Shown one piece after another: positions 10,155-33,799 of a stretch of DNA of 49,502 nt. Made by a program: the position numbers and the translations under genes. The notes under the pieces are model-generated. The model searched no databases. It saw nothing but the letters and a program-made list of their open reading frames with translations, and was not told where the DNA came from. Positions within the stretch are counted from its first letter, which is position 1. Every line of letters starts with the position of its first letter. Source of the stretch: Blastococcus sp. (lineage in GTDB: Bacteria; Actinomycetota; Actinomycetes; Mycobacteriales; Geodermatophilaceae). The stretch lies in assembly GCA_025965715.1 (NCBI GenBank), contig JAOPWJ010000234.1:1-49502 (forward strand), in the 5' to 3' direction.

Positions 10155-11262
10155 TGGCCCGCGCGGCTGCCCCGGCGTCGAGCCGGATCTGCAGCAGCAG
10201 GCCCTTCAGCGGATTGGACAGCCCGACGAAGCGGAGACCGGGCGACCCCGGCGCCGTCGCTGCCCCCCGGACCAGGGGCCGGCCCCGGCCGTCGAGCACC
10301 CCCAGGTGGCCGACCACGTCATCGAGGCCCCGGGTGTACCCGGTCGCGGCGAGGACGACGTCCGGCTGGAGGCGCGTTCCGTCGGCCAGGACGACGTCGC
10401 GCCCCTCGAAGCGGTCGAGGGCGGCGACCGGCTGCACCCGCCCCGCCTTCAGCTGCACGACCAGCCCGACGTCGATGGTCGGCGTGACGCCCGTGGCGCG
10501 CGCCTGCGCCACGACCCCGGCCCTCGGTGCCGGCATGCCGTAGGGGGTGAGGTCCCCGATGAACCGGCGCTGCAGCGCCCGGTTGAGCGGGTCGGCCAGC
10601 CACGCGGGTGAGTAGTCGAGGGAGATGCCCAGCAGCGTGACGGGCACCGGTCCGAGCTGCCGGGGGATGACGTTGGGCGGCGTGCGGATCGCCAGGCGCA
10701 CCGCCCTGGCCCCGCCCGCCGCGAGGTCGGCCGCGATCTCCGCTCCCGTGTTGCCCGCCCCGACGACGAGCACGTCCTTGCCGCGGAAGGGCGCCGGATC
10801 GCGGTATGCGGACGCGTGCAGCACCTGGCCGGCGAAGGACTTCCGGCCCGGCCAGCGGGGCAGCACCGGGTCCTGGTTGAACCCCGACGCCAGCACGACC
10901 TGTCGGAAGCGCAGTTCGTCGTCGTCCGTGACGGCCGCCCATCCGCCGCGGACCAGGTCCAGGCGCCGGACCACCGTGCCGAACCGGGGCTCCACGCCGT
11001 GGTGGGCGGCGTAGTCGCCGAGGTAACGGACCAGGTCGTCGCGGGCCACCCACCGGCCGGCGCTGCGGGGGATCGGCAGACCCGGAAGGGCCGACTGCAC
11101 GCGCGGCGTGTGCAGGTGGAGCCGGTCGTAGCGGGCGCGCCAGGAGTCGCCCACGGCCGATCCGCGGTCCACCACGAGCGGCTGCACGCCTCGCCGTCGC
11201 AGGGACGCCGCCACGGCCAGGCCCGCGGGCCCCGCTCCGACCACCAGCACCTGCTCGTCCAT
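10129..11262 (-). CDS. FAD/NADP-dependent flavin monooxygenase-like protein
   Basis: A 377-residue two-dinucleotide-domain flavoprotein. GAGPAG at residues 9-14 is the FAD site, GAGNTG at 168-173 the NADP site, and FAGQVLHASAY at 143-153 resembles the FxGxxxHxxxY signature of flavin monooxygenases and Baeyer-Villiger enzymes. ATGY near the C-terminus is the second FAD contact. Such proteins insert one oxygen atom into a nitrogen, sulfur or carbonyl centre; some relatives are putative potassium-transport-linked (CzcO-like) flavoproteins, so the substrate is open. The ATG at 11262 is chosen because GGAGGCGG lies directly upstream and the FAD motif then sits at the proper distance from the start. 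The 3' end overlaps the ATPase gene on the other strand. Confidence 0.82.
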   Translation of the reverse strand: MDEQVLVVGAGPAGLAVAASLRRRGVQPLVVDRGSAVGDSWRARYDRLHLHTPRVQSALPGLPIPRSAGRWVARDDLVRYLGDYAAHHGVEPRFGTVVRRLDLVRGGWAAVTDDDELRFRQVVLASGFNQDPVLPRWPGRKSFAGQVLHASAYRDPAPFRGKDVLVVGAGNTGAEIAADLAAGGARAVRLAIRTPPNVIPRQLGPVPVTLLGISLDYSPAWLADPLNRALQRRFIGDLTPYGMPAPRAGVVAQARATGVTPTIDVGLVVQLKAGRVQPVAALDRFEGRDVVLADGTRLQPDVVLAATGYTRGLDDVVGHLGVLDGRGRPLVRGAATAPGSPGLRFVGLSNPLKGLLLQIRLDAGAAARAISRELPRD

Positions 11263-11295
11263 TCCGCCTCCTCGGCCGACCACCATGCCGTGGCG

Positions 11296-11316
11296 GGCCC
11301 CTTCGGGAAAGGGGCC
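11296..11316 (-). terminator. Hairpin downstream of the molybdoenzyme gene
   Basis: GGCCCCTT at 11296-11303 pairs perfectly with AAGGGGCC at 11309-11316 around a five-base loop. It lies 175 bases after the stop of the minus-strand molybdoenzyme gene and 34 bases before the monooxygenase start. There is no T-run, which is common for actinobacterial terminators. It could equally be a leader structure of the monooxygenase gene. Confidence 0.4.
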
Positions 11317-11490
11317 GGTGCAGGTCAGGTCAGCGGCACCGGAGTCCTGCGCCCGAGGGTGCCGAGGAGGGCGCCCCGCGACCGGTCGGGGAGCGCCGAC
11401 CCCCGGCACGGCCCGGACAACAGCGACCACGCCGACAGCGCCGATCCGAGGGGCTGTGGGGGAGCGCGCCCGCCGATGGTGGCCGGGCCA

Positions 11491-13131
11491 TCAGCGGGCG
11501 CTCACCTGGACGGAGTGCCAGCCGCTGGCGCCGTCGGGAAAGGGATCGGCCCGGTCGTCGGTCTGGGTCTCGCCGTCCGTGGTCGTGGCCCGGACGGTGA
11601 CCGTGTGCGGGCCCGCCCGGAAGTGGTGGGGCAGCATCCACTGGCGCCAGAGGTCCGCGCCGACCTGAGGGGACAGCTCGGCCTCGACCCAGTTCTCATC
11701 GTCGACCTTGACCTCGACGCGGTCGATGCCACGGGTCTGCGCCCAGGCGACGCCGCCGATCGCCCGGCGGCCGGCGTCGAAGGCCCGCAGGTGCGCTGGG
11801 GTGTCGATCCGGGAGGCCACCTTGATCGGTCCGTCCTCGGCCCACCCGCGCTGCACCCAGTACGCGTCGAAGGCGTCGTAGGTGGTGGCCTCGATGTCGG
11901 CGAGCCACTTGCACGCCGAGACGTAGCCGTAGAGACCAGGGATCAGCATCCGGACCGGGAAGCCGTGCTCCACCGGCAGCGGTTCGCCGTTCATGCCGAA
12001 CGCGAGCATGGCGTCCTCGACCTCGAGCGCCGACCGCGTCGGCGCACCGATGGTCATGCCGTCGACCGACCGGCAGACGAGCTGATCGCTGCCGGACGCC
12101 ACGCCGTTCTCCCGGAGGAGGGCGCCGAGGGGCACACCCAGCCACCGCGCCGTCCCGGCCAGCCGGCCGCCGATCTCGTTCGAGACGCAGGTGAGGGTGA
12201 TGTCGCGCTCGATCAGGTCGCTGCGGCCCATCAGATCGCGCAGCGTGTACGAACGGGGGAAGTCGAACATGCCGGTCATCGACAGCCGGTAGTCCGCCGG
12301 CCGGACCTGCGGCACGGAGATCGCGGTATCCACGCGGTAGAACTCGCGATTGGTCGTGAACAGCGGCGTGATGCCGTCGACTCTTCGGGACAGGTCGGCG
12401 CCGGCCGGGAGCGCGGCGGCGGGCGAGGCCGGCCGCGGGAGGGCCAGCTGGTCGCGGGCGGCCGCGACGTCGAAGCGGCGCTGCAGCAGCCGTCCGCCAC
12501 CTCCCGCCAGCGCGGCGACGCCGACCGCGACGCCACTGGTCAGGAAGAACCGCCGCCGGTCCAGGGCAGCGCCCTTCCGGTCGCCGGCGCCCAGTGCCTC
12601 CCGGAGCCGGTCGATGCCCGCGCCGTCGCCGGCAGGCCCCGGCGTCGAGGGCGGTTGCGGGCGTGCGGGCGCGAGGGCGAGGGGTGCGATCAGCCGAACC
12701 AGGGCGACGACGCCGGCGGCGGCGCCGATCAGCGAGGGCAGCCCGTCGAGCAGCCCACCGGCGGGCCGCGTGGTGGCGGCCACGAACCCGACGAGCCCGA
12801 AGGCGGCGATCCCGGCGGCCCCCACCCGGCGGCTGCGCAGCGAGAGGAGCCCGACCGCCAGGGAGTACAGGGCGATGACGACGAGCGTGCCCACGACGAG
12901 TGCGATCTTGTCGTTGCGGCCGAACGTCGTGATGGCGAAGTGCTTGACCGACTCCGGGGTGAGGGTGATCGCCGCGTCGCCGACGGCGACCAGGGGGGAG
13001 GACTCCGGGCCGACTCCCGCGGCTCCCAGTTCGGCGATGCCGAGCGCGACGGCGGCCGCGAGGAGGCCGGCCATCGCCGCCAGCAGCCGGCGAAGGCCCG
13101 GGCCCAGCCGGGCGTTCTGGGTCGGCTCCAT
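11491..13131 (-). CDS. Membrane-anchored sulfite-oxidase-family molybdoenzyme
   Basis: A 546-residue protein. Four membrane helices lie at about 15-40, 76-98, 103-121 and 131-153. They are followed by DRRRFFLTSG (191-200), a twin-arginine-like motif in front of a fifth hydrophobic stretch (196-212), so the catalytic part should sit outside the membrane. The oxidoreductase domain has Cys315 in ITLTCVSNEIGG, the ligand to the molybdenum of the pterin cofactor, and the C-terminal 110 residues form the immunoglobulin-like dimerisation domain of the sulfite oxidase family. The reaction could be sulfite oxidation or a sulfoxide reduction like MsrP/YedY; no haem partner is adjacent. The ATG is chosen because GGGAGA lies upstream and the first helix follows; the open frame extends further but without support. 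Confidence 0.85.
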   Translation of the reverse strand: MEPTQNARLGPGLRRLLAAMAGLLAAAVALGIAELGAAGVGPESSPLVAVGDAAITLTPESVKHFAITTFGRNDKIALVVGTLVVIALYSLAVGLLSLRSRRVGAAGIAAFGLVGFVAATTRPAGGLLDGLPSLIGAAAGVVALVRLIAPLALAPARPQPPSTPGPAGDGAGIDRLREALGAGDRKGAALDRRRFFLTSGVAVGVAALAGGGGRLLQRRFDVAAARDQLALPRPASPAAALPAGADLSRRVDGITPLFTTNREFYRVDTAISVPQVRPADYRLSMTGMFDFPRSYTLRDLMGRSDLIERDITLTCVSNEIGGRLAGTARWLGVPLGALLRENGVASGSDQLVCRSVDGMTIGAPTRSALEVEDAMLAFGMNGEPLPVEHGFPVRMLIPGLYGYVSACKWLADIEATTYDAFDAYWVQRGWAEDGPIKVASRIDTPAHLRAFDAGRRAIGGVAWAQTRGIDRVEVKVDDENWVEAELSPQVGADLWRQWMLPHHFRAGPHTVTVRATTTDGETQTDDRADPFPDGASGWHSVQVSAR

Positions 13132-13412
13132 CGCCGTCTCCCGTGTCGCGGTCACATCAGAGCTTCTGCGGAGGCATCCGATCCGGTTGCACCCCAGGGA
13201 AAGATATTCGGGCGCCCGGTCGAACGGGTGCCGTTGAGTTCCCGCCGAGGTCGGCCTCGAGGTGCACCGCGAGCGACTGGCCGACGGGGTCGACCGCGAG
13301 GCGGCAACCGGGCCGAGCGTCCGTCGCGCGCCCTGATCTCCTCGCCGCGGCCGGGCACGCTGGGCAGCGCCCTCCGGGACGTCGCGGGCCGGGTCCGCCC
13401 GAGGCGGCACGC

Positions 13413-15044
13413 TCAGCTGAGCTGAGCGGCCACCAGCGGCTCCAGCTTCAACGACGGGTGCCGCTGCTGCAGCATCCGCAGTGCCCATTTGTCGGTGAAC
13501 ACCGCGAGCAGGTCGCCGTTGTCGCGCTGCAGGACCTCCGCCCCACCGGACGCGGACACGAAGGGGACGCCGGCCTCGTCGGTGCGCAGCGCCAAGCTGT
13601 AGGGCAGCCGCTCGAGCCCGATCGGTGCGTTGAACTCGTGCTCCATGCGGTGGCTGGCGACCTCGAACTGCATGGGCCCGACGACGGCCAGCACCGGCGC
13701 CTGGTCACCGCGCCGGTCGGATCGCAGCACCTGGACGACCCCCTCGGAGTCGAGCTGATCGATGCCCTTGCGGAACTGCTTGTGCTTGTCGGTGTCCTTG
13801 CCGCGGGCGACCGCGAAGTGCTCGGGGGCGAAGGTGGTCAGCGGGGGATAGGTGACCGGCTTCTCCGCGTAGAGCGTGTCGCCGACGCCCAGTGCGTTGG
13901 CGTTGACCAGGCCCACGACGTCACCCGGGTAGGCCAGGTCGATGCTCTCCCGCTCGCGGCCGAAGACGTGCTGGGCGTACTTGGTGGTGAACGGCCGCCC
14001 GGTCCGGCCGTGGGTGACCACCATGCCGCGTTCGAAGACGCCGGTGCAGATGCGGATGTAGGCCAGCCGGTCGCGGTGCGCGGCGTCCATGCCGGACTGG
14101 ATCTTGAACACGAATGCACTGAACGGCTCGTCGACCGGGTGGACGCTCCCGTCGACGTCCGGGCGGCCCGACGGCGGGGGAGCGAGGTCGACCAGCGAGT
14201 CCAGCAGTGCGCCGACGCCGAAGTTGGAGACCGCCGAGGCGAAGAGGACCGGCGTGGTGATGCCCGAGAGGAACATGTCCTGGTCGTGCTCGGCGCCCGT
14301 CTCGGCCAGCAGTTCCGACTCCTCGACCGCCTGCTCCCAGTTCGTGCCCTCCTGCGCGGCAGCGGCGGCTGCCGGCAGCAGCTCCTCGGGGGCGATCGTG
14401 GCGCCGCCGGCCGTCCGGGTGAAGCGCCGGAAGTTGCCGTCCCGGCGGTCGAGCACGCCGCGGAAGTCGCCGGCGATGCCCACCGGCCAGGTCAGGGGTG
14501 TGGGGGTGAGGCCGGTCCGCTCGCTGATCTCGTCCATGAGCTCGAGGGCGTCCTTGCCGGGGCGGTCCCACTTGTTCACGACGGTGACGATCGGGATGCC
14601 ACGGTGCCGGCAGACCGCGAACAGCTTCATCGTCTGGGCCTCGAGGCCCTTGGCGGCGTCGATGAGCATGACCGCGGCGTCGACCGCGGTGAGGACCCGG
14701 TAGGTGTCCTCGGAGAAGTCGGCGTGGCCGGGGGTGTCGAGCAGGTTGATGACCGCGTCGCGGTAGGAGAACTGCAGCGCCGCCGAGGTGATCGAGATGC
14801 CGCGGTCGCGCTCCATCTCCATCCAGTCCGACACCGTGCCGCGTCGTCCGGCCTTGCCGTGGACGGCGCCTGCCTGCCCGATCACGCGGGCGTGCAGGGC
14901 CAGCGCCTCGGTGAGGGTGGACTTGCCGGCGTCGGGGTGGCTGATGACGGCGAAGGTCCGCCGACGCGCAGCCTCGGCTGCCGCCACCGCTTCGGGGGCG
15001 CTGTGTCCCGCCGTGCTCGGCGCGGCCTCGGTGGTGGCCCTCAC
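13413..15044 (-). CDS. prfC: Peptide chain release factor 3
   Basis: A 543-residue translational GTPase that recycles release factors 1 and 2 from the ribosome after peptide release. The G1 loop SHPDAGKST is at 35-43, the G3 motif DTPGHADF and the G4 motif NKWDRP follow in order, and the switch I region WMEMERDRGISITS is the form expected of RF3. The C-terminal RF3-specific domain is complete. I choose the GTG at 15044 because AAGGAG lies nine bases before it; an in-frame ATG at 15086 has no ribosome site and would only add a non-conserved tail. Length agrees with bacterial RF3 (about 525-545). It is a single gene, unlinked to its neighbours. Confidence 0.93.
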   Translation of the reverse strand: MRATTEAAPSTAGHSAPEAVAAAEAARRRTFAVISHPDAGKSTLTEALALHARVIGQAGAVHGKAGRRGTVSDWMEMERDRGISITSAALQFSYRDAVINLLDTPGHADFSEDTYRVLTAVDAAVMLIDAAKGLEAQTMKLFAVCRHRGIPIVTVVNKWDRPGKDALELMDEISERTGLTPTPLTWPVGIAGDFRGVLDRRDGNFRRFTRTAGGATIAPEELLPAAAAAAQEGTNWEQAVEESELLAETGAEHDQDMFLSGITTPVLFASAVSNFGVGALLDSLVDLAPPPSGRPDVDGSVHPVDEPFSAFVFKIQSGMDAAHRDRLAYIRICTGVFERGMVVTHGRTGRPFTTKYAQHVFGRERESIDLAYPGDVVGLVNANALGVGDTLYAEKPVTYPPLTTFAPEHFAVARGKDTDKHKQFRKGIDQLDSEGVVQVLRSDRRGDQAPVLAVVGPMQFEVASHRMEHEFNAPIGLERLPYSLALRTDEAGVPFVSASGGAEVLQRDNGDLLAVFTDKWALRMLQQRHPSLKLEPLVAAQLS

Positions 15045-15449
15045 GTCCTGGTCTCCTTGCTCGGGCGCAGGGGTGGTCCTGCTCATGCGGTGCAGTTCGG
15101 GCGGCGTCGGATCCGCGCGGCCCTGCGGCGTCGGCGTGCCGGCCACGTCAGGCGGCACCCCTGTATCGACGACTGGAACCGCTGCCGGGCGCCTGGTGTT
15201 CCGTCGTCGTCGGGGGGAGTATCGCTCAGTCACTGGGCCGCCGGTGCATCCGCCTCGCCTTCCGCGGTCTCGTCCGGGCGCGGCAGCAGCAGCCGGGAGG
15301 CACCCAGGGCACCAGGCTCAGGGGCACCGTCTCTGGGCATTCGGCCGCCGGAGGGTCTGCGGCTCACGGCAAAGCTGCGGCCCACCTGCCCCACCTTCCC
15401 TCCCCGTCCGGTGGGCCCGGTGGTGGGCCGTGCGCGAGAGGATGCCGCA
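15045..15449. promoter_or_regulatory. Divergent region between prfC and the flavodoxin-like gene
   Basis: This 405-base gap carries the promoters of both genes. Upstream of the flavodoxin-like gene there are three copies of an eight-base word: GGCCCACC at 15379-15386, and GGTGGGCC at 15410-15417 and 15422-15429, so one inverted and one direct pair (12-base period). On the minus strand, 15230-15340 can encode a 36-residue peptide ending in LPRPDETAEGEADAPAAQ with codon-like composition, but there is no ribosome site; I regard it as a possible small gene or fossil only. Confidence 0.35.
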
Positions 15450-23349: not shown

Positions 23350-24552
23350 GTGTCGGACGGGACGTTCAGCCGGCTGCTGAGGTCGTTGCGGGGCGCCGTG
23401 CGCCCGCCGGAGCTGACCACCGGTGACGATCGCTCCGCCTCGCGGCTGGAGCTCTTCTTCGACCTCGCGTTCGTGCTGGTCGTGGCCCAGCTGGCCACCG
23501 TCCTGCGGAACGACGTCAGCGTCCACGGCGGGCTGGTCTTCGCCGGGATGTTCGCGACGGTGTGGTGGTCGTGGGTCAGCTCCACGCTGTACGCCAACCG
23601 GTTCGACCACGACGATCTGGTGTACCGGCTCTACAAGCTGGCCAGCATGGCTGCCGTCATCGGGCTGGCCGCCTCGGCGACCGCGGCGACCGGGGAGCGG
23701 TTCGCGGCGTTCGTCGGCTGCCAACTGGTGCTGCGCGGAACGTTGCTGCTGCAGTACCACCGGGCCTACCGGCACCTCCCCGCAGCGCGCCCGGTGGCGC
23801 GGCTGTACATGGCCGGCGCCGGTGCCGGCGCGCTGCTGTGGGGCGCCTCGCTGCTGGCGCCGCGGCCGGCCGCCTTCGCACTGTGGGCGGCCGCGGTCCT
23901 CACCGAGGCGCTCGTGCCCCTGCTGGCGACACGGGGCTCGGCCGACGTCCCGCTGCACGAGGAGCACCTGCCCGAGCGGTTCGCCCTCTTCGTGATCCTC
24001 GTCCTGGGCGAGTCGGTGGCGGGGGTGGCGAACGGGCTGCGCGACGCCGGCTGGACCTCCTCGGCGATCCCGGTGGCGGTGCTGTGCTTCGTTCTCGCGG
24101 CCGCCTTGTGGTGGAGCTACTTCGACCTGGCCGGCGCCCGCGCCAAGCGGCTGCTCAGCGAGGCCGGCGTGGACCGGAGCGACCACTCCCACGACGTGTA
24201 CGTGTTCGGGCAGCTGCCCCTCACGCTGGGGCTGGCGCTGATCGGGGCGGGGATCGAGCTGGCGGTGGTGGAGAGCGGGCAGGGCGAGGTGCCTGGGGGC
24301 ACCCGCCTCCTGCTCGCGGGCGGGGTGGCCCTGTATCTCGTGTCGGTGACCGTCATCGACACCGGAATGGCGGGCCGGGCGCGTACCGGCTGGTGGTGGC
24401 CGCTCACCGCGGCCGTGGTCGCGTTGCTCGACGCCGCACTCGAACTGCCGGCCGTGGTCGTGGTGGGCGCCCTGGCGGTGCTGTTCGTCGCCGTGGTGGT
24501 GGCCGGGTTCGTCGAGCGGTCGTCGGGCCGACTGGCCGTCGACCCGGTCTGA
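23350..24552 (+). CDS. Low temperature requirement protein A (LtrA) family membrane protein
   Basis: A 400-residue polytopic membrane protein with about ten to twelve helices. The LtrA signature is clear: SASRLELFFDLAFVLVV at the first helix and, in the middle, HLPERFALFVILVLGESV, where conserved Glu and Arg/His residues face each other. The biochemical role of LtrA is unknown; the family name comes from a Listeria mutant with poor growth in the cold. I place the start at GTG 23350, preceded by a GGGGGG run; GTG 23338 in the same frame is possible but lacks a ribosome site. It ends 28 bases before the direct-repeat box upstream of the M4 protease gene, so the two are probably separate units. 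Confidence 0.85.
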   Translation: MSDGTFSRLLRSLRGAVRPPELTTGDDRSASRLELFFDLAFVLVVAQLATVLRNDVSVHGGLVFAGMFATVWWSWVSSTLYANRFDHDDLVYRLYKLASMAAVIGLAASATAATGERFAAFVGCQLVLRGTLLLQYHRAYRHLPAARPVARLYMAGAGAGALLWGASLLAPRPAAFALWAAAVLTEALVPLLATRGSADVPLHEEHLPERFALFVILVLGESVAGVANGLRDAGWTSSAIPVAVLCFVLAAALWWSYFDLAGARAKRLLSEAGVDRSDHSHDVYVFGQLPLTLGLALIGAGIELAVVESGQGEVPGGTRLLLAGGVALYLVSVTVIDTGMAGRARTGWWWPLTAAVVALLDAALELPAVVVVGALAVLFVAVVVAGFVERSSGRLAVDPV

Positions 24553-24579
24553 GCGGTCCCGGGCACCTGCGACGCCGCG

Positions 24580-24597
24580 GTGACGCCCCGGTGACGG
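24580..24597 (+). promoter_or_regulatory. Direct-repeat box GTGAC-N6-GTGAC upstream of the M4 protease gene
   Basis: The box reads GTGACGCCCCGGTGACGG: two GTGAC words with an 11-base period, ending 50 bases before the ATG of the M4 protease gene. An 18-base box identical at 16 positions sits at exactly the same distance from the peptidoglycan-binding gene at 26340. Direct repeats with an 11-base period are the usual target shape of OmpR/PhoB-type response regulators (for example MtrA, PhoP or GlnR); which regulator acts here is unknown. Confidence 0.5.
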
Positions 24598-24647
24598 TGG
24601 AGGCGCGAGCATCGGAGGGCTTTCCGCCGTCCGGACCGAGGGGTGTC

Positions 24648-25826
24648 ATGACCGCCAGCCGTGCCCTGAACTGCATCGTCCCGCCGCACATCCTCGCCAA
24701 GCTGCTGGAGAGCAGCGACACCGCGATCCGCGACGCGGCGATGAGGACCCTCCTCACCACCATGCGACTCCGGGGCGAGCGCGAGGTCCGGACCACCCTG
24801 CTGGGCCGTTCGGCGCCCGCGCAGGGACGGCGCACCGTGCTCGACTGCAGGCACAGCACGGTGCTGCCCTCGGCGGTGATCGCCCGCACCGAGGACGGCC
24901 CCGAGTCCGGCGACATCTCGGTCAACCGCGCGTTCGACGGATTCGGCGCGACTCGCCAGTTCTATCTCGACGTCATGGGCCGCAACTCCATCGACGGCAG
25001 GGGCATGCGCCTGGACGGGTACGTGCACCGGGGCGTCGACTACAACAACGCCTTCTGGGACGGCCAGGAGATGGTCTTCGGGGACGGCGACGGCGTCATC
25101 TTCACCGACTTCACCGGCTCGCTCGACGTGATCGGTCACGAGCTGACCCACGGGGTGACCGAGCACACCGCCGGTCTGGAATACCACAACCAGTCGGGGG
25201 CCCTGAACGAGTCGATGTCCGACGTCATGGGGTCGCTGGTCAAGCAGTGGTCCCTCCAGCAGACCGCCGACCAGGCCGACTGGCTGATCGGCCCGGAGGT
25301 GTTCACGCCCGGCGTCGAGGCGGACGCGCTGCGGTCGATGAAGGCACCCGGCACCGCCTACGACAACGAGACGTTCGGCAAGGACCCGCAGCCGGACCAC
25401 ATGGACCGCTACGTCGCGCTGCCGGACACCGACGAGGGCGACAACGGAGGCGTGCACATCAACTCGGGCATCCCGAACCACGCCTTCTACCTCACCGCTG
25501 TCGCAATCGGGGGACATGCCTGGGAGGCCGCGGGGCACGTGTGGTACGAGTCGCTGCGGGCGTCGACGTCGACGACGGAGTTCCAGGAGTTCGCCGAGAC
25601 GACTGCGAGCAAGGCGGCGCAGCGCTACGGGACCGGCAGCGCCGAGCAGAAGGCCGTGCGGGAGGCGTGGGAACAGGTCGGCATCACGACGGCCAGCGGG
25701 TCCCGCGGCGGAGGACGGCCGCCGTCGGGCGCCATACCCACCCCCCGGGACGAGTTCGTCCGCCACTTCGACGAGCTCGCCGCCCAGGTCGACCGACTTC
25801 GTTCCGAGCTGCACCTGCCGGCCTGA
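24648..25826 (+). CDS. Protealysin-like M4 (thermolysin family) metalloprotease
   Basis: A 392-residue zinc endopeptidase. Zinc ligands are His164, His168 (GHELTHGVTEH) and Glu188 (GALNESMSD), with Glu165 as catalytic base; the 20-residue step from His168 to Glu188 is as in thermolysin. GGVHINSGIPNHAFY carries the transition-state histidine equivalent to thermolysin His231. The start is protealysin-like: no signal peptide and a short N-terminal propeptide beginning ALNCIVPPHILAKLL, the PPH-type element that blocks the active site until removed. About 50 residues at the C-terminus (after 340) are extra and may form a coiled tail (DELAAQVDRLRSEL). ATG with GAGGGG upstream. It is followed 40 bases later by an emfourin-like inhibitor gene, the known arrangement for protealysin-like proteases. 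Confidence 0.92.
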   Translation: MTASRALNCIVPPHILAKLLESSDTAIRDAAMRTLLTTMRLRGEREVRTTLLGRSAPAQGRRTVLDCRHSTVLPSAVIARTEDGPESGDISVNRAFDGFGATRQFYLDVMGRNSIDGRGMRLDGYVHRGVDYNNAFWDGQEMVFGDGDGVIFTDFTGSLDVIGHELTHGVTEHTAGLEYHNQSGALNESMSDVMGSLVKQWSLQQTADQADWLIGPEVFTPGVEADALRSMKAPGTAYDNETFGKDPQPDHMDRYVALPDTDEGDNGGVHINSGIPNHAFYLTAVAIGGHAWEAAGHVWYESLRASTSTTEFQEFAETTASKAAQRYGTGSAEQKAVREAWEQVGITTASGSRGGGRPPSGAIPTPRDEFVRHFDELAAQVDRLRSELHLPA

Positions 25827-25866
25827 CAACCTGGCGATCCGGCTCGCGGCAGGGTAGATCCACTGC

Positions 25867-26178
25867 ATGAGGGTCACCCTGGCAGTGCACGGCGGCTTCG
25901 CGGGTGGGCTCCGGCTCGGGCGCCCACCCGTCGAGGTCGACCTGTCGGCACTGACCGACCACGACGTCCTGGCGCTGACCGGGCTGTTGTCCGCGGCGAA
26001 GGAGGATCCACCGCCGGCGGAGCCGTCCCGCGCCGTCCCCGACCAGCAGAGCTACACCGTCACGGTCGACGACGGGCAGACGCAGCAGGTCCTGCGACGG
26101 ACGGACACGACCATGTCGCAGGCCTTCGCCGACCTGGTCGACCGGCTGCAGCGGCTCGGCGGCGTCTCCGGCGATTGA
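25867..26178 (+). CDS. Emfourin-like inhibitor of the M4 protease
   Basis: A 103-residue protein that follows the protease gene by 40 bases in the same direction. The pattern matches emfourin, the protealysin inhibitor of Serratia and its actinobacterial relatives: a first strand with a GGF motif (VHGGFAGGLRLG), a middle part with an acidic LTDHDVLALTGLL helix, then a Tyr-rich strand (DQQSYTVTVDDG), and a C-terminal helix ending FADLVDRLQRLG. In those systems the inhibitor binds the mature enzyme tightly and keeps it silent inside the cell. No signal peptide is present, so both partners are probably made in the cytoplasm. Assignment rests on neighbourhood plus motif memory; a homology search was not possible. 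The ribosome site before the ATG is weak (AGGGTAGA), which fits coupling to the protease transcript. Confidence 0.75.
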   Translation: MRVTLAVHGGFAGGLRLGRPPVEVDLSALTDHDVLALTGLLSAAKEDPPPAEPSRAVPDQQSYTVTVDDGQTQQVLRRTDTTMSQAFADLVDRLQRLGGVSGD

Positions 26179-26929: not shown

Positions 26930-27112
26930 GTGGAGACACGCTACGAGTGCTGGGGTCCGGACAAGGAGGACCTGACCGCACGGCTGCGGAAGCACTACGA
27001 CGACGGCGACATCCCGATCTTCTTCGGGACCGGAGGCCCGCCGAGCTGGAAGTTCAGGCTCACGTGCCTCCAGGGGCACGAGAACGTCTTCGACGGCACC
27101 GACCGGCCGTGA
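26930..27112 (+). CDS. Small hypothetical protein (60 residues)
   Basis: GTG start with a strong GAGGGAGA ribosome site four bases upstream. The product is a 60-residue acidic/aromatic protein: ETRYECWGPDKEDLTARLRK, then PIFFGTGGPPSWKF and RLTCLQGHENVF. Two cysteines (7 and 46) and a His at 49 are not enough for a zinc ribbon by themselves. I do not recognise the family. Its stop shares GTGA with the next gene, so the two are translationally coupled, which supports that this short gene is real and works with the membrane protein. Confidence 0.65.
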   Translation: METRYECWGPDKEDLTARLRKHYDDGDIPIFFGTGGPPSWKFRLTCLQGHENVFDGTDRP

Positions 27113-27921
27113 GCGCCGCCGACCACTCCGGCACCGACCCCACGGGGGACCGCGAGGACGATCCGTCGAAGCGTGCACCCGCCGCGGAGGTGCACACCGG
27201 TCGGCCGCCCACGCCCGACGAGCGGTACTGGGCGGCCGCGGGCGAGGAGCTGACCCCGCTCAAGAGTCTGGAGCGGATCGACAGCAAGGCCGGTTTCGTG
27301 TTCGGCAACGTCACGCTCGTCGGCACGATCCTGACCGGCTTCGGACTGGCGACCGGCACGTCGGGACGGTTCGCCGATCATCCGGGGCCGGCGTCGACCG
27401 CCCTGGCGCTGATCGTCGTAGCGGTTCTTCTCGCGCTGGCCGCCAACCTGCCCTCGTTCCGGCGGCGGATCGATCCTGCCGACATCGTTCAGGTCGAGCG
27501 CTTCTACCGCACGAACATCGGCATTCGCGGCTGGCTGACGCGGGTGGCGCTGCTGTGCTTCACCGGGGCGTTGCTCCTTGCCGCGTGGTTGGTGTCGCAG
27601 GTGGCCAGCGCTGCCCCCGAGACGTCGCTGGCGCTCCAATGGCGCGACGACGGGGAGGGGGCGCGGAACGTGGTCGGGCGGGTCGTCGCCACGGACTTGC
27701 CGCCGGCGGCGGAGATGGAGACGGTCCTGGTGTCGCAGGTGTCCGACGACGAGGAGGAGCAGGTGCTCGCCGAGGACCACTCGGATGCCGACGGCACCGG
27801 ATCGGTCACGGTGACCGTCGAGGTGGGCGCGGCGCCGGCCGACACCGTGCTGCGACTCGAGGTCGTGGTGACGCGCGGTGGCGAGCGGGTCGCGGCCGAC
27901 TCGATGGAGCTCACGCCCTGA
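27109..27921 (+). CDS. Three-helix membrane protein with an outer domain, unknown function
   Basis: A 270-residue protein. Residues 1-45 are disordered and charged. LKSLERIDSKAGFVFGN precedes the first membrane helix (about 62-84); the others lie at 96-116 and 141-167, with a basic loop (RRRIDPADIVQVERFYR) between the second and third. From 172 to the end there is a beta-rich, acidic region (DDEEEQVL, GSVTVTVEVG) that resembles an immunoglobulin-like fold and should lie outside the cell if the N-terminus is inside. The layout, with an ERIDSKAG-type segment just before a helix pair, is loosely like small membrane effectors of the Pycsar type, but I see no nucleotide cyclase nearby, so that link is only a thought. 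GTG start overlaps the preceding stop. Faces the TPR gene tail to tail. Confidence 0.72.
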   Translation: MSAADHSGTDPTGDREDDPSKRAPAAEVHTGRPPTPDERYWAAAGEELTPLKSLERIDSKAGFVFGNVTLVGTILTGFGLATGTSGRFADHPGPASTALALIVVAVLLALAANLPSFRRRIDPADIVQVERFYRTNIGIRGWLTRVALLCFTGALLLAAWLVSQVASAAPETSLALQWRDDGEGARNVVGRVVATDLPPAAEMETVLVSQVSDDEEEQVLAEDHSDADGTGSVTVTVEVGAAPADTVLRLEVVVTRGGERVAADSMELTP

Positions 27922-27966
27922 TCGGCAGCCCACGCCCTGATCGGCAGCTCACGCCCTGATCGCGAG
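27910..27966. repeat. Three tandem copies of a 19-base unit between convergent genes
   Basis: The unit CTCACGCCCTGATCGGCAG occurs at 27910-27928, 27929-27947 (one change) and 27948-27966 (three changes at its end). The first copy contains the stop of the membrane protein gene, the third the stop of the TPR gene on the other strand. It looks like a local duplication. It forms no hairpin. Confidence 0.85.
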
Positions 27967-30963
27967 TTCGGCGACCGACGAGGCGGCGTCCTCGCCGGGC
28001 TCCGAGGGGTCCGGGCGGCGCAACGCCGTCTCGACCATCTCCCGGCACTCGTCGGCGACGCCACTGCTCAGACCGCCCACGCGGCGGGCGTCGTCCATGT
28101 CGACCAGCGCCACGCGGAGCAGCCCCCGGCGCCTGAGCGGATTCTTCCGGTCGGCCCGGTGGATGCCCCGCCGGTAGCCCTCGACCGCGGAGTCGTGGAC
28201 GCCCTGGCAGAGCTCGGCCAGGGCGAGGTCGAAGTAGGTGTCGACCGCCCCGCCGCTGAGCCGCAGCGACCGTCGGTACCTGCGGGCCGCCTCCTCGAAC
28301 TGCCTGAGCCCGTAGTGACACCAGCCCGCCGTCGCGACCTCGTCGGGGTCCTGACCGTTGACGTCGATGCCCTGCAGCGCCAGGACGAACTGCTCCCGGG
28401 CCTCCTCGGCCTCACCGGACTTCCAGAGGACCGTCGCCAGCTCCTTGCGGTAGAGCGGCTCGTCCGGCGCGAGTCCGACCGCGATGCGCATCGCGCCGAG
28501 GGCCTCGGGCAGCGTGTCCAGGCCCTGGTTCTCCAGGGCCCAGGCCAGCCAGACGTGGGCCTCGGCGTCGGTGCGGTCCAGCCCAGCCGCCGTTCGCAGC
28601 ACGGCCGAAGCCGTCTCGAAAGCGCCGACCAGGCACAGGACCCTTCCCCGTCCCACCAGGGCAGCGGCGTTCTGTGGATGGGCGTCGACCGCCCGGCGGG
28701 ACGTCTCCAGCGCCGACCCGTAGTCCTCCAGCTCCAGGTTGGCGCGGACGACGTCGCTCATCAACGTCGCGTCGTCGGGGGCGACCTCCAGCGCCCGGCG
28801 GAAGACCGCCAGCGCGTCGGTGGGCCGCTCGGCGGTCAGCAGTGTGTAGCCGAGCAGCCGGTGGGTCAGCCGGTCCCCTGGCGAGCCGACGAGGGCGGCC
28901 TCGAACTCGGCATAGGCCTCGTCGAACCGCCCCAGCTGCCGCATGACGTCCCCGAGTCCACGGTGCGCCTCGGCGCTCGTCGGCTCGAGGGCGAGGGCGG
29001 CCCGGAACGCCTTCTCCGCGTCCACGAACCGGTGATGGGTGTTGTGCAGGTCGCCGAGCAGGGTCAGGGCCGGCCCGTTCTCCGGTTGCTCCTTGACCGC
29101 GCGGCGCAGGGCCGTCGCGGCCGCCTTGTCGCGGCCCAGCGCCGACAGCACGTGCCCCTTGACCGTCAGCGCCTTGGCGTTCCGGCTGTCGTGGTGCAGC
29201 GCCTTCCGGGCGAAGGCCAGCGCCCCGTCCAGGTCACCGGCCTGCCGCAGGTCTTCGGCGATACGGGTGTAGAGCTCCGGACTGGGACAGAGCTCGACCG
29301 CCTTCCGGAGGGCCGCGACGGCGGCGTCGATCCGCCCTTGCGCCTCGTGCACGGAGGCGATCCTCATCAGGACCTCGGCCCGCTCGAGGTCGGGCAGGCC
29401 GGTCTCCTCCGTGCTCCCGCCGGCGGGGGTGTCCAGAGCCGCGGTATCGAGAGCTGCCTGGAAGGCCTCGAGCGCGTCGTCGAGCCGGCCGAGCCGGACG
29501 TAGACCCGACCGAGGGCTGCCGACGCGCGCGGGAACCCGCCTGCCAGGCGCACCGCCTCCCGGAGCTCCTTGGCGGCGCGGCTGAGGCGACGCTGGTCGT
29601 TGAGGGTGCGTCCGAGGATCCACCGGGAGCGGGCGTCGGAGGGATCGATCTCCACGGCTCGCCGGAGCGCGCCGACCGCCCCGTCGAGGTTGCCGCTGCG
29701 CCGCTGCGCCTCGCCGAGCGAGGCCCACGGCCGGACCGCGTCCCGGTCCAGAGCGACCGACCTCCGCAGGTCGTCGATGGCCAGGTCGAACTGTCGCCGC
29801 TCCATGCGGACCTCACCGCGCACCGCCAGTGCCTTGGCGTGGCCCGCGTTCCGCTCGATGGCCGCGTCCAGCGCCCGGAGCGCGTCATCGGTCGCACCGG
29901 TGTGGTGCAGGCTCTCCCCGAGAGCGGCGTAGAGGTCGGCCGACGGGCTTCCCAGCCGCGTCTGGGCCTCCCGCAGCTCGGCCACGGCCTTGTCGTGCAA
30001 CCCCAGGGCCTGCCACGCCAGGCCCCTGGCCTCGGCCGCCTCGGCGGACCGCACGGCGGCGGGGCCGGTACCCGGCAGTTCCTCCAGCGCCTCCTGCGGG
30101 CGCCCGGCGGAGATCAGGGCCCGCGCCTTCTGGACGTGGAGGCGCGCGTCCTCGCCGCCCTGCTCGATCGCCGCGTCCAGTTCCGCCGCCGCCTCGTCCG
30201 GGCGTCCCACGCTCACCAGAGCCACCGCCCGGAGGCTCGCGGCCTCCGGCTGGTTCGCCGTGTCGCCGCCCGCGCTGTCCAGCAGGTCCAACGCCTCCTG
30301 GTAGCGATGAGCGGCCACGAGCGACTCGACCGCCGTTCTCACGGCGTCCGGCGCGTCGGCGGACCGAGACTCGCGGAGGACCTCCGCCAGGGCGACGGCC
30401 GGGTCCGGCGCCTTCGGGAACCGTGCGACGAGCGCGCGCAGACGCTTCTCGGCGTCCTCCTTGCGCCCCGCCTCGCGCAGCCAGGCAGCCAGGCGCAGCG
30501 TCGGACCTGGTTCCCCGGGATCCAGCCGTACCACCGCCGCCTGGGCCTGGACGGCGCGATCGAGCTGGCCCGCACCGTGCAGCGCGCTGGCGAACGCGGC
30601 CCACTCCTCCTGCGCCATGGTCGGCGACTCCTCGAACACGCGGATCGCCGTGTCGAACTCCTGCCGCGCACGTTCCTCGTCGCCGCGGGCGGCCGCGACC
30701 TGCCCCAGCAGGCTCGACCCCACAGCGGTGAGGCTGCGGCCGGTGTCGCCGGCCTGCCGGCCGACGATCCGTAGCGCCGCCGCGGCGCTGTTGAGCAGGT
30801 CGGCGGCCTCGGCTGCCCGCCCCTCCTCGAACAGGGCGCCGCCCCGGTGGATCATCTCGCGGGCCACGGTGATCATGACGTCCTCGACGAAGGCGCGGGC
30901 GCCGCGGGCGATCGAGGCCAGTCCCGGGAAGAAGCTCCCGGGCAGGAGCGGTCCGGATATCAC
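27949..30963 (-). CDS. Large tetratricopeptide-repeat protein (1004 residues)
   Basis: After a short hydrophobic start (SGPLLPGSFFPGLASIARG) the whole protein is built of 34-residue TPR-type helix pairs, more than twenty of them, for example ALRRAVEIDPSDARSRWILG and AFRAALALEPTSAEAHRGLG. No catalytic domain is visible; it should be a long superhelical scaffold for protein contacts in the cytoplasm, or at the membrane if the N-terminal stretch is an anchor. The GTG start has AAGG/GGAG text upstream. It follows the pseudo-zincin gene by 22 bases and, with the zincin-like gene before that, forms a three-gene unit. Conserved TPR positions (Gly8, Ala20, Pro32) recur throughout. Partner and function are unknown; the arrangement suggests it holds the protease pair or its substrates. 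Confidence 0.88.
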   Translation of the reverse strand: MISGPLLPGSFFPGLASIARGARAFVEDVMITVAREMIHRGGALFEEGRAAEAADLLNSAAAALRIVGRQAGDTGRSLTAVGSSLLGQVAAARGDEERARQEFDTAIRVFEESPTMAQEEWAAFASALHGAGQLDRAVQAQAAVVRLDPGEPGPTLRLAAWLREAGRKEDAEKRLRALVARFPKAPDPAVALAEVLRESRSADAPDAVRTAVESLVAAHRYQEALDLLDSAGGDTANQPEAASLRAVALVSVGRPDEAAAELDAAIEQGGEDARLHVQKARALISAGRPQEALEELPGTGPAAVRSAEAAEARGLAWQALGLHDKAVAELREAQTRLGSPSADLYAALGESLHHTGATDDALRALDAAIERNAGHAKALAVRGEVRMERRQFDLAIDDLRRSVALDRDAVRPWASLGEAQRRSGNLDGAVGALRRAVEIDPSDARSRWILGRTLNDQRRLSRAAKELREAVRLAGGFPRASAALGRVYVRLGRLDDALEAFQAALDTAALDTPAGGSTEETGLPDLERAEVLMRIASVHEAQGRIDAAVAALRKAVELCPSPELYTRIAEDLRQAGDLDGALAFARKALHHDSRNAKALTVKGHVLSALGRDKAAATALRRAVKEQPENGPALTLLGDLHNTHHRFVDAEKAFRAALALEPTSAEAHRGLGDVMRQLGRFDEAYAEFEAALVGSPGDRLTHRLLGYTLLTAERPTDALAVFRRALEVAPDDATLMSDVVRANLELEDYGSALETSRRAVDAHPQNAAALVGRGRVLCLVGAFETASAVLRTAAGLDRTDAEAHVWLAWALENQGLDTLPEALGAMRIAVGLAPDEPLYRKELATVLWKSGEAEEAREQFVLALQGIDVNGQDPDEVATAGWCHYGLRQFEEAARRYRRSLRLSGGAVDTYFDLALAELCQGVHDSAVEGYRRGIHRADRKNPLRRRGLLRVALVDMDDARRVGGLSSGVADECREMVETALRRPDPSEPGEDAASSVAELAIRA

Positions 30964-30985
30964 GCTGGCCTGCCTTCTCCGTGGG

Positions 30986-32518
30986 TCATGGCCGGATGGC
31001 GTCGCTGGGTGGGGTGTGGGACGTGGATTCCCCGCCTCGTGTCGGCGGCTTCAGCCGGGGCCAGATGTGGTCGCGTACCTGCCGGGCGATATCGGGCGCG
31101 GAGTCCGGGCGCTGCAATCGGCGGTACCAGGCCGCATTGAGCACCTGCACCATCGTCACCGCCTCGAGGTCGGGGTCGGCCCCTTCGGCCGGCGGGTCGG
31201 GGAAGAACCCGACAGCTCGCCGCTTGGCGTCGGCGAAAGCGTTGTCGTCGAAGCGGATGTGCGTCTGGTTGCGGAGCTCGATCACCTCGAGCGCCTGCAC
31301 GAGGCTGCTCACCACGGGTTCCACCAGCCGCCGCTCGCCTTCCGACACGGCCGGGGGCGCCAGGTGGGCAACGGCGTCGTTCCAGGACAGCTGGAGCTTG
31401 TCGATGGTGTCGGTGAGATTGCCCTGCAACTTCGGCGCCATGTGCCGCAGGGTCCCGACAACCACTTCTGCCCGGACCAGGTCCCACGCCTGGTCCTCCG
31501 CACGGCCGACAGACAGGGGATCGAGCTTGAGCAGGAGGCAGGCGCACGCGTAGGCGGGACCCATCACGTACGTCGCGAACGCGTCGGCGAGATAGGTCCT
31601 GATCCGCGCTTCGCGCGCGCGCCGAGCGGTCTCGGCGGCGCCGGCGTCCGGGCCGAGCTGCTTGGGTACCGCGGAAGGCGCGGCGGCCAGCCGTTCGGCC
31701 AGCGCCTGCAGCTCGGCGTCCTTCTCGACGAGGATGCGACCGAACTCGTGGGCGAACAGCGGCAGCGCCCAGATCGTCCACTCCGGAAAGCCCAGGCGGA
31801 TGATGCTGGGGATCGTCGACGGTTCCGTCCGGGCGGGGATCGCGAACATGTACGGCAGGTCCACGACGGTCGTCCAGTAGTCGCTGAGCCAGTCCGCCAT
31901 CGCGCAGAAGTGCTCGTCCATGCCCATGCCGCGCAGGCTCAGTCCCGCCGCCACGTCGACGTACTGCTGGAACAGGCTCAGCTGATCCGGCCCGCCCACC
32001 AGTTCCCGGTACTTCGCCCAGGCCGGGGCGGCGGCGTCCCCGTCGACGGCTGCGGGCGCGGCCGCCTCGTCCGTTCCCAGTGCGGTGCGCAGCTGGATCG
32101 TCTGGGTGAGCAGGTTCAGTGCCGGTCCGGCGTTGAAGATCGTCTTGACGTGCTCCCGGTTGAGGAGGGCATCGGTCTCCCGGATGTCGGCGACCAGCTT
32201 CCGGGTCTCCTGCTGCGCCTCCTGGAGGGTCTGCTCGAGGTTCGTGAGGCTCCTGGCCGCCGTGGCCAGATGCTCGGAGAGGCCGTAGTCGCTGAAGAGG
32301 TCTGCGATGTCCGGGTAGTCGTTGAGTCGCGAGATCGCGTCCACGGCGGACTTGGCACGTCGCAGGTTGAGCGTCGCGTTCGCCCCCGGGGCCACCAGCA
32401 GGGAGTTCAGCCGGCGGATGGAGTCGCTCCTCGCCCCGACCACGTTGACCAGCTGACGGACGTCGCGAAGGTTGCGTTCCAGTGCCTCGATACGGATGCG
32501 CAGGAACAGGTCACCCAT
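30986..32518 (-). CDS. Zincin-like paralogue with lost zinc ligands (pseudoprotease)
   Basis: A 510-residue protein related to its upstream neighbour (32511-33689). Shared blocks are FPEWTIWALPLFAHEFGR (here) against FPEFSVWALPMLGHEAGH, LADAFATYVMGPAYACACLLL against IADFFGVWSLGPAYACSAVLL, and LNAAWYRRL against VNAAWIARL. The zincin motif here is HEFGR at 257-261, so the second His is Arg261, and the residue equivalent to the third ligand Glu208 of the paralogue is Thr308. Zinc catalysis is therefore unlikely. It has an extra N-terminal region (1-165) with heptad-like helices (LEQTLQEAQQETRKLVADI). The start ATG overlaps the end of the paralogue by eight bases, indicating coupled synthesis, and the TPR gene follows after 22 bases. 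A regulatory or substrate-holding role is inferred. I do not know a named family. Confidence 0.75.
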   Translation of the reverse strand: MGDLFLRIRIEALERNLRDVRQLVNVVGARSDSIRRLNSLLVAPGANATLNLRRAKSAVDAISRLNDYPDIADLFSDYGLSEHLATAARSLTNLEQTLQEAQQETRKLVADIRETDALLNREHVKTIFNAGPALNLLTQTIQLRTALGTDEAAAPAAVDGDAAAPAWAKYRELVGGPDQLSLFQQYVDVAAGLSLRGMGMDEHFCAMADWLSDYWTTVVDLPYMFAIPARTEPSTIPSIIRLGFPEWTIWALPLFAHEFGRILVEKDAELQALAERLAAAPSAVPKQLGPDAGAAETARRAREARIRTYLADAFATYVMGPAYACACLLLKLDPLSVGRAEDQAWDLVRAEVVVGTLRHMAPKLQGNLTDTIDKLQLSWNDAVAHLAPPAVSEGERRLVEPVVSSLVQALEVIELRNQTHIRFDDNAFADAKRRAVGFFPDPPAEGADPDLEAVTMVQVLNAAWYRRLQRPDSAPDIARQVRDHIWPRLKPPTRGGESTSHTPPSDAIRP

Positions 32519-33689
32519 CAGTCGCCTCTTCCGTGTCGGGGGGTGCCACGGCCGTTCGGCACGCGGCCATGGCCAGGGCTTCCAGCCGGCGGACGGTCGT
32601 CTCGTCGTCCCAGTGGCGCAGCCGGGCGATCCACGCGGCGTTCACGATCTCCCGCAGCGAGTAGGACGCCGCGATCTCCGACGGTGTCCGCGCCCGCTGC
32701 TCCAGGAGTCCGGCGAGCTCCTGGACCGCCGTCCGCGAGGTGAAGGCGGCCCGTGGGAAGAGGCGGGCGGCGAGCCTGGCCAGATCGGCGACGAGATCGT
32801 CCAGCGGCGCCGTCTCGTCGGCCTCTGGTGCGTGGAGACCGAACGGTGTCACCAGCTCCGCCCAGAGCCGGCGGAGTGCCGTGACGACGTCGGCGTAGCC
32901 ACCGTCGAGGCAGGTGAGCGTCTCGAGGATGAGGTGGGTGCGCTCCAGCTCGGGGGGATGGTGGGCGACGATCCGGTCGGCGGAGCCGGGGGAGAACCGG
33001 AGCAGCACGGCCGAACAGGCGTAGGCCGGTCCCAGGCTCCAGACACCGAAGAAGTCGGCGATGAACTCGCGGTTCAGCCGGTCGCCGAGGCCCTGGGTGG
33101 TCTCCCCTGTGCGGGCCGCGCCGGCGAGCAGAGCCAGGGGGAAGGTGAACGCCCGCGCGTCCTGGCGGAGCGTGCGCAGCTCCTGGGTGGCCACGTGCCC
33201 CGCTTCGTGGCCGAGCATCGGGAGAGCCCAGACGGAGAACTCGGGAAATCTCGTCCACACGGTCCGCGTGAGCGGGCTGAACGCGTCGCCGACGGCCAGC
33301 GTGACGGTGGGCCAGGAGACCTGTGGCGGCATGGCGGCGGCCAGCTCCCCGAGCACCGCGCCGGCCACCGCGCCGTAGTCGTCGTCCAGCCGCTGCTGCT
33401 GGACGTAGAGCGCACCGAGGTAGGCGAGGCTGTCGCGCAGCGAGTGCTCGATGTCGGTGCGGACGCCCTGCAGGCGTCCCCATCCCGAGCGGAGGTCCCC
33501 ATTCCTCGCCACGTCCCGCGCGATCGCGTCCAGATCCAGCGCACGCAGCCGCAGATCGTCGGCGAAGGAGTCCAGCGCGGCCGTCGGCCCGCCGCCGGTC
33601 ACGGCAGGACTGGTGAGAATCTCCTCGGCACAGCGGAGGTCGTCGCGCGCAAGGAGCAGCCGCGCGTCGAGGACCGATCTCGCGTCCAT
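32511..33689 (-). CDS. Putative zincin metalloprotease (HEAGH, Glu ligand 43 residues later)
   Basis: A 392-residue protein with HEAGH at 161-165 and a candidate third ligand Glu208 in LNREFIADFF, an arrangement like gluzincins such as M48 or M78. The surrounding helices (ALPMLGHEAGHVATQEL and FFGVWSLGPAYACSAVLL) are hydrophobic but there is no signal peptide; it may be soluble or lie against the membrane. Residues 1-140 are helical and differ from known proteases; 240-380 form a helical C-terminal part ending with VNAAWIARLRHW. ATG with GGGGG upstream. It is the first gene of the unit with the pseudo-zincin (eight-base overlap) and the TPR protein. I cannot name the family. The catalytic assignment is inferred from the motif, and the second, degenerate copy next door supports a common ancestor. 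Confidence 0.7.
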   Translation of the reverse strand: MDARSVLDARLLLARDDLRCAEEILTSPAVTGGGPTAALDSFADDLRLRALDLDAIARDVARNGDLRSGWGRLQGVRTDIEHSLRDSLAYLGALYVQQQRLDDDYGAVAGAVLGELAAAMPPQVSWPTVTLAVGDAFSPLTRTVWTRFPEFSVWALPMLGHEAGHVATQELRTLRQDARAFTFPLALLAGAARTGETTQGLGDRLNREFIADFFGVWSLGPAYACSAVLLRFSPGSADRIVAHHPPELERTHLILETLTCLDGGYADVVTALRRLWAELVTPFGLHAPEADETAPLDDLVADLARLAARLFPRAAFTSRTAVQELAGLLEQRARTPSEIAASYSLREIVNAAWIARLRHWDDETTVRRLEALAMAACRTAVAPPDTEEATDG

Positions 33690-33767: not shown

Positions 33768-33799
33768 GCCGTATCCGAGACACGCAGGTCCGATACGGC
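33768..33799. promoter_or_regulatory. Inverted repeat between the zincin unit and the aldehyde dehydrogenase gene
   Basis: GCCGTATC (33768-33775) and GATACGGC (33792-33799) are perfect inverted copies with a 16-base spacer, in the 127-base gap before the zincin-like gene and 18 bases after the aldehyde dehydrogenase stop. No T-run follows on the minus strand. It is either a terminator of the dehydrogenase transcript or an operator of the zincin unit. Confidence 0.45.

Follow-up and report, generated by a model that had tools for sequence, protein, structure and literature searches.

Pairs of active and inactive proteases are a known regulatory theme in eukaryotes. In E. coli, M48 proteins are picked out by the pattern H-E-x-x-H-x(30,140)-H-P-x(4)-R, and the available part of the BepA literature describes H246 of this protease as a fourth zinc ligand on the active-site plug loop and its TPR cavity as needed for function (PMC7950410). 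Here we describe a locus in which a predicted zincin protease, a degenerate zincin paralogue (the twin) and a TPR protein are encoded one after the other. The window, a stretch of 49,502 nucleotides, comes from contig C80 of a 3.5-Mb genome that is 80% complete, and consists of 263 contigs. A G+C content of 72.5% would fit an actinobacterium. The initial annotation had read from it a zincin gene with HEAGH and a glutamate in REFIADFF, an overlapping paralogue with arginine and threonine at two ligand positions, and a TPR gene 22 bases further on. The translations agree with all of these coordinates and residues (Table 1). Zincin and twin are paralogues by BLASTP, which aligns 143 aa at 31% (E 9e-13), and match each other at E 1.6e-13 when the genome is searched. 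A Pfam search finds 14 stretches matching PF13432 in the TPR protein. None of the three window proteins has a hydrophobic segment over threshold. The inverted repeat in front of the zincin gene may be an operator or a terminator.

Table 1. Features of the window and of the three further triads. Positions are those of the window or of the named locus.
Feature	Position	Strand	Basis
Zincin gene, predicted active M48-like metalloprotease, 392 aa	32511..33689	-	translation; counterparts in L016, L017 and L043
HEAGH at residues 161-165, predicted to supply two zinc ligands and the catalytic Glu	33195..33209	-	sequence
Glu208-x3-Asp212 (in REFIADFF), predicted third zinc ligand, then Asp	33054..33068	-	sequence, alignment
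GPAYAC block, residues 220-225, common to zincin and twin	33015..33032	-	alignment
HP-x4-R at residues 244-250, equivalent to the plug motif of M48 active sites	32940..32960	-	motif comparison with BepA H246/P247/R252 (PMC7950410, in part)
Overlap of zincin end and twin start, 8 bases	32511..32518	-	sequence
Degenerate zincin paralogue (twin), 510 aa, longer N-terminal region	30986..32518	-	translation; paralogy; counterparts in three other loci
HEFGR, twin residues 257-261, second His replaced by Arg261	31736..31750	-	sequence
Thr308 at the position of the third-ligand Glu (RTYLADAF from 307)	31595..31597	-	sequence, alignment
TPR protein of 1004 aa with GTG start; no hydrophobic segment exceeds the threshold	27949..30963	-	translation; PF13432 match; genome-wide best-match test
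Inverted repeat, 11-nt arms, 91% complementary, 10-nt spacer	33768..33799		gap between aldehyde dehydrogenase-like gene (by reading) and zincin gene
L016 (MAG titled Chloroflexi), zincin, HELGH	9749-11023
L016, twin, HEFAY	11016-12608
L016, TPR gene, runs off contig
L017 (MAG titled Bryobacterales), zincin, HEFGH	9980-11143
L017, twin, HAFWH	11257-12759
L017, TPR gene	12756-15179
L043 (genome G778), zincin, HELGH			profile search, 297 genomes of the phylum of the L017 genome
L043, twin, HELGL			same search
L043, TPR protein, 1009 aa			same search

The three genes are a real, conserved unit. Three further loci carry the triad; one of them lies in a Chloroflexi MAG, the other two in the Acidobacteriota group. 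Hence, the zincin, the dead zincin and the TPR protein occur in the same order at all four loci of the zincin clade. The loci were picked by zincin or twin similarity; the TPR gene was not a selection criterion. The genes are tightly packed. The start codon of the L016 twin (ATG at 11016) gives the same 8-base overlap with its zincin as in the window, and the twin and TPR genes overlap by 4 bases in L017 and L043. Such overlaps may allow translational coupling. The initial annotation had proposed that a three-gene order conserved across genera, with the same ligands lost in the twin, would support a functional unit. The order is indeed conserved, and the third-ligand glutamate is gone from all four twins, but the damage to HExxH varies by locus. 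It had also stated that homologues occurring alone in most genomes would speak against the unit. Within the clade, twin and TPR gene adjoin the zincin at all four loci, whereas other clades of the wider family have zincins without both.

We then compared the TPR genes genome by genome. In G778, which holds L043, the window TPR protein has 54 matches, and the TPR gene of the operon ranks first among them (1.1e-27; next gene 3.6e-15). In G403, which holds L017, the operon gene is the best of 58 matches, though narrowly (2.2e-14 vs 2.6e-13 for the next gene). In G402, which holds L016, contig C15 carries the best match (1.8e-33) at its end, whereas the zincins are on C96, where the cut TPR gene beside them scores 3.3e-5. 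The window TPR protein also matches a PrimPol model and two TPR models of PADLOC (best 8e-8), inside its TPR region.

Alignment of the four zincins shows that H161, E162 and H165 are unchanged, and that the third-ligand glutamate is kept in each. The window zincin and its twin have the blocks FPE[FW], WALP, GPAYAC and NAAW in common. A further conserved block that the initial annotation does not list, HP-x4-R, distinguishes the window zincin, which has it, from its twin, which lacks it. In the four twins, the third-ligand glutamate is replaced by Thr, Asp, Thr and Val, and HExxH is altered differently at each locus, to HEFGR, HEFAY, HAFWH and HELGL. The HP motif is missing from three of them. 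The L016 twin retains HP-x4-R and has an aspartate, a possible metal ligand, where the glutamate stood; it is therefore the least certain to be dead. All four twins retain FPEW, W-x-LP, GPAYA and the C-terminal N-x-x-W, as well as the aspartate of E-x3-D, and therefore the fold seems to be selected for something besides catalysis. The differing damage with the same outcome suggests, from sequence comparison, that catalysis is dispensable in the twins and the fold is not. These retained blocks (FPEW, W-x-LP, GPAYA and N-x-x-W) would also suit a twin that is not regulatory and has a non-proteolytic function of its own, as a decoy or a second substrate-binding subunit, beside a zincin that may itself be weak or inactive. 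However, the pairing at all four loci and the overlapping genes at two of them fit a stoichiometric partner at least equally well, and we regard an independent function of the twin as rather improbable.

How the pair arose was addressed with a 22-row tree. In it, the eight triad proteins group together (98/99), and within this group a single branch separates zincins from twins (87/92; recovered in 94% of 200 bootstrap trees). Without the five long rows, the triad clade (86/82) and the zincin/twin split (85/88, 86% of bootstraps) persist. A tree that keeps zincin and twin of one locus together could be rejected in the case of L017 (p 0.005) and of L043 (p 0.008), but not in that of the window (p 0.078) or L016 (p 0.074). 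The branches are long, the branching order differs between zincins and twins, and the place of the window twin shifts between the two trees. A single duplication that preceded the divergence of the lineages would be the simplest reading, which we favour rather than assert.

The family of the zincin was inspected next to its motif. The initial annotation had left room for both proteins belonging to a described family. Neither matches a Pfam or NCBIfam model at cut-off or any PADLOC family at E up to 1, and the window zincin has no Pfam match at E up to 1. Among the Pfam families listed at E up to 0.1 for 17 relatives there is no M48. The M4 identity (protealysin/emfourin type) was rejected for zincin and twin, as neither has an M4 match in Pfam. 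HExxH together with E-x3-D is found in all 18 non-degenerate zincins of the 22 rows and in none of the four twins, and the full signature HExxH...Glu...HP-x4-R in 17 of the 18 non-degenerate relatives and again in no twin (0/4). The sole non-degenerate row without HP-x4-R is L063, with Tyr-Pro instead of HP. The motif order of HtpX and BepA is the same as in the zincins. Profile comparison by hhalign with BepA/HtpX/LoiP was not significant: the triad zincins reached 17%, aligned over HExxH, and the pAgo clade described below 0.8%, aligned over HP-x4-R. By motif, the zincin should work like an M48 protease; as a member of that family it is a candidate. HExxH...E-x3-D...G...HP-x4-R is a simple motif with which annotators can look for the remaining members.

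Structure prediction was of little help. Folding of the window zincin alone gave a pLDDT of 48.6, and the AlphaFold model made with the 6-row alignment A3 has a pLDDT of 61.3 (pTM 0.54). A Foldseek search of the PDB with this poor model (pLDDT 61.3) gave no match at E up to 0.001, and its top rows are GPCRs and other unrelated, mostly helical chains. The window zincin has no sequence match in the PDB. Profile searches of PDB chains (A3, A4, A8 and A9) gave no metallopeptidase among the matches listed, which are designed helical proteins, keratins, thymidine kinase, RXR, a transporter and similar.

In the 17-row set of relatives, each listed Pfam, NCBIfam or PADLOC family is matched by one row only. 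The best of these matches is that of the L016 zincin to PADLOC capP (E 5.8e-6, 24 bits). It raises a CapP/PprI-type derepressor, in which the zincin would sense ssDNA or stress, cut a repressor and switch on other genes; according to the available part of PMC10904395, ssDNA activates PprI, and the same is described for CapP/CapH. But the other 16 of 17 relatives lack a capP match, as does the window zincin, no CapH-like gene was seen by reading directly beside the trio, and the PprI/CapP descriptions in that part of PMC10904395 include neither a dead twin nor a TPR partner. We consider a derepressor of this type improbable.

The triad is rare. With the zincin alone as query, no relative was confirmed in a collection of 84,980 species (by the tool's description), and with the zincin/twin alignment as query the same collection gave two loci, L016 and L017. 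The twin query matched one of 61 genomes, its own, and none of the 15 same-genus genomes. Within the class, the zincin query matched 5 of 296 genomes. Of three outside class matches whose loci were inspected (L003, L004 and L005), L004 (G098) alone proved to be a relative, and a distant one. L005 was rejected because its match lies, by reading, inside an insertion-sequence ATPase gene, and L003 because it has no zincin frame; L006 and L007 match the same part of the query as L005. The zincin part of L004 matched 3 of 345 genomes, profile A3 (6-row alignment) 5/301, 3/297 and 2/336 genomes, and profile A7 3/180 and 5/158. These counts include the query genomes, and only some of the first-look candidates were scored, so that absence from them is not proof. 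Viral contigs gave no match with alignment profiles A2 and A3, and phages none with the L016 zincin. Plasmids gave no match for the window zincin, the window twin, the L004 zincin part, the L017 twin or the L066 zincin. The whole L004 protein matched 96 plasmid records, the best 30 of which lie in its dCTP deaminase part, and the L016 zincin had one weak plasmid match, which led to the pAgo operons. The distribution bears on a house-keeping role in quality control, in which a BepA-like cytoplasmic protease would clear misfolded or stalled proteins, with the TPR protein recruiting clients, the twin acting like a chaperone and no invader involved. Such a role would explain the M48 motif and the TPR partnership that the triad has in common with BepA, but not the patchiness of the triad, seen most clearly with the twin query.

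Relatives of the zincin are found in eight pAgo/nuclease operons (L030, L033, L044, L062 and L067-L070). Their zincins belong to the same superfamily as the triad zincins (hhalign 99.3%, E 5e-20). Seven of these operons comprise a PD-(D/E)XK nuclease, an Argonaute-like protein of about 800 aa and a small protein, with the zincin last; in L044 the order differs, and the zincin precedes the nuclease. Seven of the eight have a regulator upstream, an HTH protein or a sigma factor according to annotation or reading; none was seen in L067. The L030 Argonaute is PADLOC pAgo_II (E 1e-226), and its counterparts in the other seven operons match it with E values of 5e-14 or better. The seven other nuclease genes match that of L030 at E 5e-16 or better, and the small proteins match partly. 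Five of the eight operons are on plasmids, of Spirosoma, Emticicia, Runella, Rhizobium and an Aphanizomenonaceae cyanobacterium, and in these five the zincin gene is annotated as hypothetical protein. Ryazansky 2018 and Makarova 2009 contain no word beginning with protease or peptidase (words of the metalloprotease type fall outside this count), and PMC12799240, on nuclease-protease pairs, contains no word beginning with metalloprotease or metallopeptidase. As to the surroundings, a protein of L070 is annotated Piwi and its operon lies beside a CBASS phospholipase, and L030 and L069 lie near ThiF/multiubiquitin genes.

By the tree, L031, L032 and L048 also carry zincins of the pAgo clade. L031 (189-2792) and L032 (9321-11177) have a different partner, of 867 and 618 aa, 40% identical over 385 aa and without Pfam match; these partners do not match the Argonautes at E up to 0.01. 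No Argonaute was seen in L048 by reading. In another group, of the same superfamily (hhalign 98.8%, E 1e-16), a dCTP deaminase-like part is fused to the zincin in L013 and L035 and encoded by the next gene in L034 and L066, as called by Pfam DCD for L013 and L034 and by reading for L035 and L066. A small gene lies nearby upstream in L034, L035 and L066, and ThiF-like, JAB-like and ImmA/IrrE-like genes were seen, by reading only, near the zincin/dCTP deaminase pair of L066 (1114-5316). L063-L065 hold more distant zincins on short contigs. The occurrence of sister clades in pAgo operons and beside dCTP deaminase-like genes is a second point against house-keeping quality control. Moreover, the pAgo operons with sister-clade zincins make a defence role directly testable. 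For the triad itself, such a role is one that we infer.

None of ten genes neighbouring the trio in the window matches a PADLOC model at E up to 0.001. Ten genes close to the other three triads were also compared with PADLOC: eight have no match, and two have generic matches (UvrD-type helicase, AAA-HTH regulator). The surroundings speak against a recognisable defence-island setting. That the triads lie among ordinary genes, not recognised defence genes, agrees with quality control as a house-keeping task, which we nevertheless hold to be unlikely in view of the patchiness and the sister clades. Elsewhere in the window, 24552-26178(+) holds an M4 thermolysin-type peptidase gene and an emfourin gene (PF20242), followed by a peptidoglycan-binding protein.

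L017 and L043 have a gene in common 18 bases upstream of the zincin. It encodes a predicted membrane protein (30% identical) in which two hydrophobic segments exceed the threshold at L043 and a single one at L017. The gene was rejected as a constant fourth member of the unit, being present in G403 and G778 and absent from G000 and G402; because of this absence, the triads have no common candidate substrate. In the window, a convergent gene beyond the TPR gene, 26947-27921(+), encodes a protein with three hydrophobic segments and no Pfam or PADLOC match. It was not counted as a counterpart of the membrane protein, since the alignment is 21%, the hydrophobic segments lie elsewhere and the gene is convergent. 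No extra co-directional gene was seen after the window trio. At the end of G402 contig C15, a C25/CHAT-like peptidase gene, L052:4284-5726(-), follows the TPR frame after 5 bases. Its product scores 26.8 bits with Pfam C25 (cut-off 23), with no single stretch passing, and 20.4 with CHAT, below the cut-off of 24. The TPR frame is open at the contig end, and it is plausible that C15 carries the rest of the cut L016 TPR gene together with this peptidase-like gene; the ends of C15 and C96 have no exact overlap. In conflict systems, the adjacent gene is commonly swapped.

Our working model, in which we have about even confidence, is a regulated-proteolysis complex made of a cytoplasmic, plug-gated M48-like protease and its dead paralogue on a TPR scaffold. 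The zinc would be held by His161, His165 and Glu208, with Glu162 as the base. His244 of the HP-x4-R loop would be a fourth ligand that blocks the zinc until the loop moves, as in BepA. The twin, which has lost the third ligand and at three of four loci the HP motif as well, would for this reason be a non-catalytic partner that keeps the fold and holds or gates the zincin, presumably as a heterodimer. The TPR protein would do in trans what the TPR domain of BepA does in cis, and bind a signal or substrate as well as the zincin pair. When a trigger, from stress or an invader, is sensed, the plug would move and the zincin would cut one or a few target proteins. A possible target is the product of the adjacent gene, namely the predicted membrane protein at two loci and perhaps the C25/CHAT-like peptidase at a third. 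A bolder extension would make the zincins an undescribed superfamily of cytoplasmic, plug-gated proteases that carry out the proteolysis in several bacterial conflict systems (Argonaute, dCTP deaminase and triad). In the triad, the TPR protein would then be the sensor and the twin the safety catch, and the activated zincin would cut the neighbouring effector (predicted membrane protein or C25/CHAT-like peptidase), starting a proteolytic cascade by which the cell finally stops growing or dies. We give this extension a low, though appreciable, probability.

Several known systems resemble the triad in part. BepA is like the zincin in HExxH, the glutamate ligand in E-x3-D, the HP-x4-R plug motif and the TPR partnership (PMC7950410, available part). 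However, BepA is periplasmic with the TPR in the same chain, whereas the window TPR protein is a separate chain of 1004 aa without membrane segment; the available part of PMC7950410 mentions no dead paralogue as partner, which the triad has, and Pfam M48 is not found in the window proteins. CapP-CapH and PprI(IrrE)-DdrO likewise place an HExxH protease in a regulated switch, and one relative has the weak capP match. These proteases cut a repressor or transcription factor (PMC10904395, available part), none of which was seen by reading beside the trio, and the triad differs from them by its TPR gene and dead twin. Craspase (type III-E TPR-CHAT, with Csx30) is likewise a TPR-linked, trigger-gated protease with a dedicated substrate, as far as the available parts of PMC11106740 and PMC9729208 describe it, but it is caspase-like and RNA-guided, whereas the triad has a zincin and no guide system was seen. 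Rare zincin fusions are described for pPIWI-RE (Burroughs 2013, PMC3702460, available part), and the sister clade of the triads lies in pAgo operons; unlike these systems, the triads have, by reading, no Argonaute or nuclease gene. For conflict systems such as iSTAND2 and the FxSxx peptide systems, inactive zincin-like domains, zincin-like peptidases and TPRs have been described (PMC8195603 and PMC7159879, available parts), a likeness by description only, and no STAND, vWA or MoxR gene was seen by reading beside the trio. No bacterial operon with the make-up of the triad was found in the open-licence PMC literature. Judged by sequence, the triad is plausibly a new regulated-proteolysis system, built on a protease family that Pfam, NCBIfam and PADLOC have missed.
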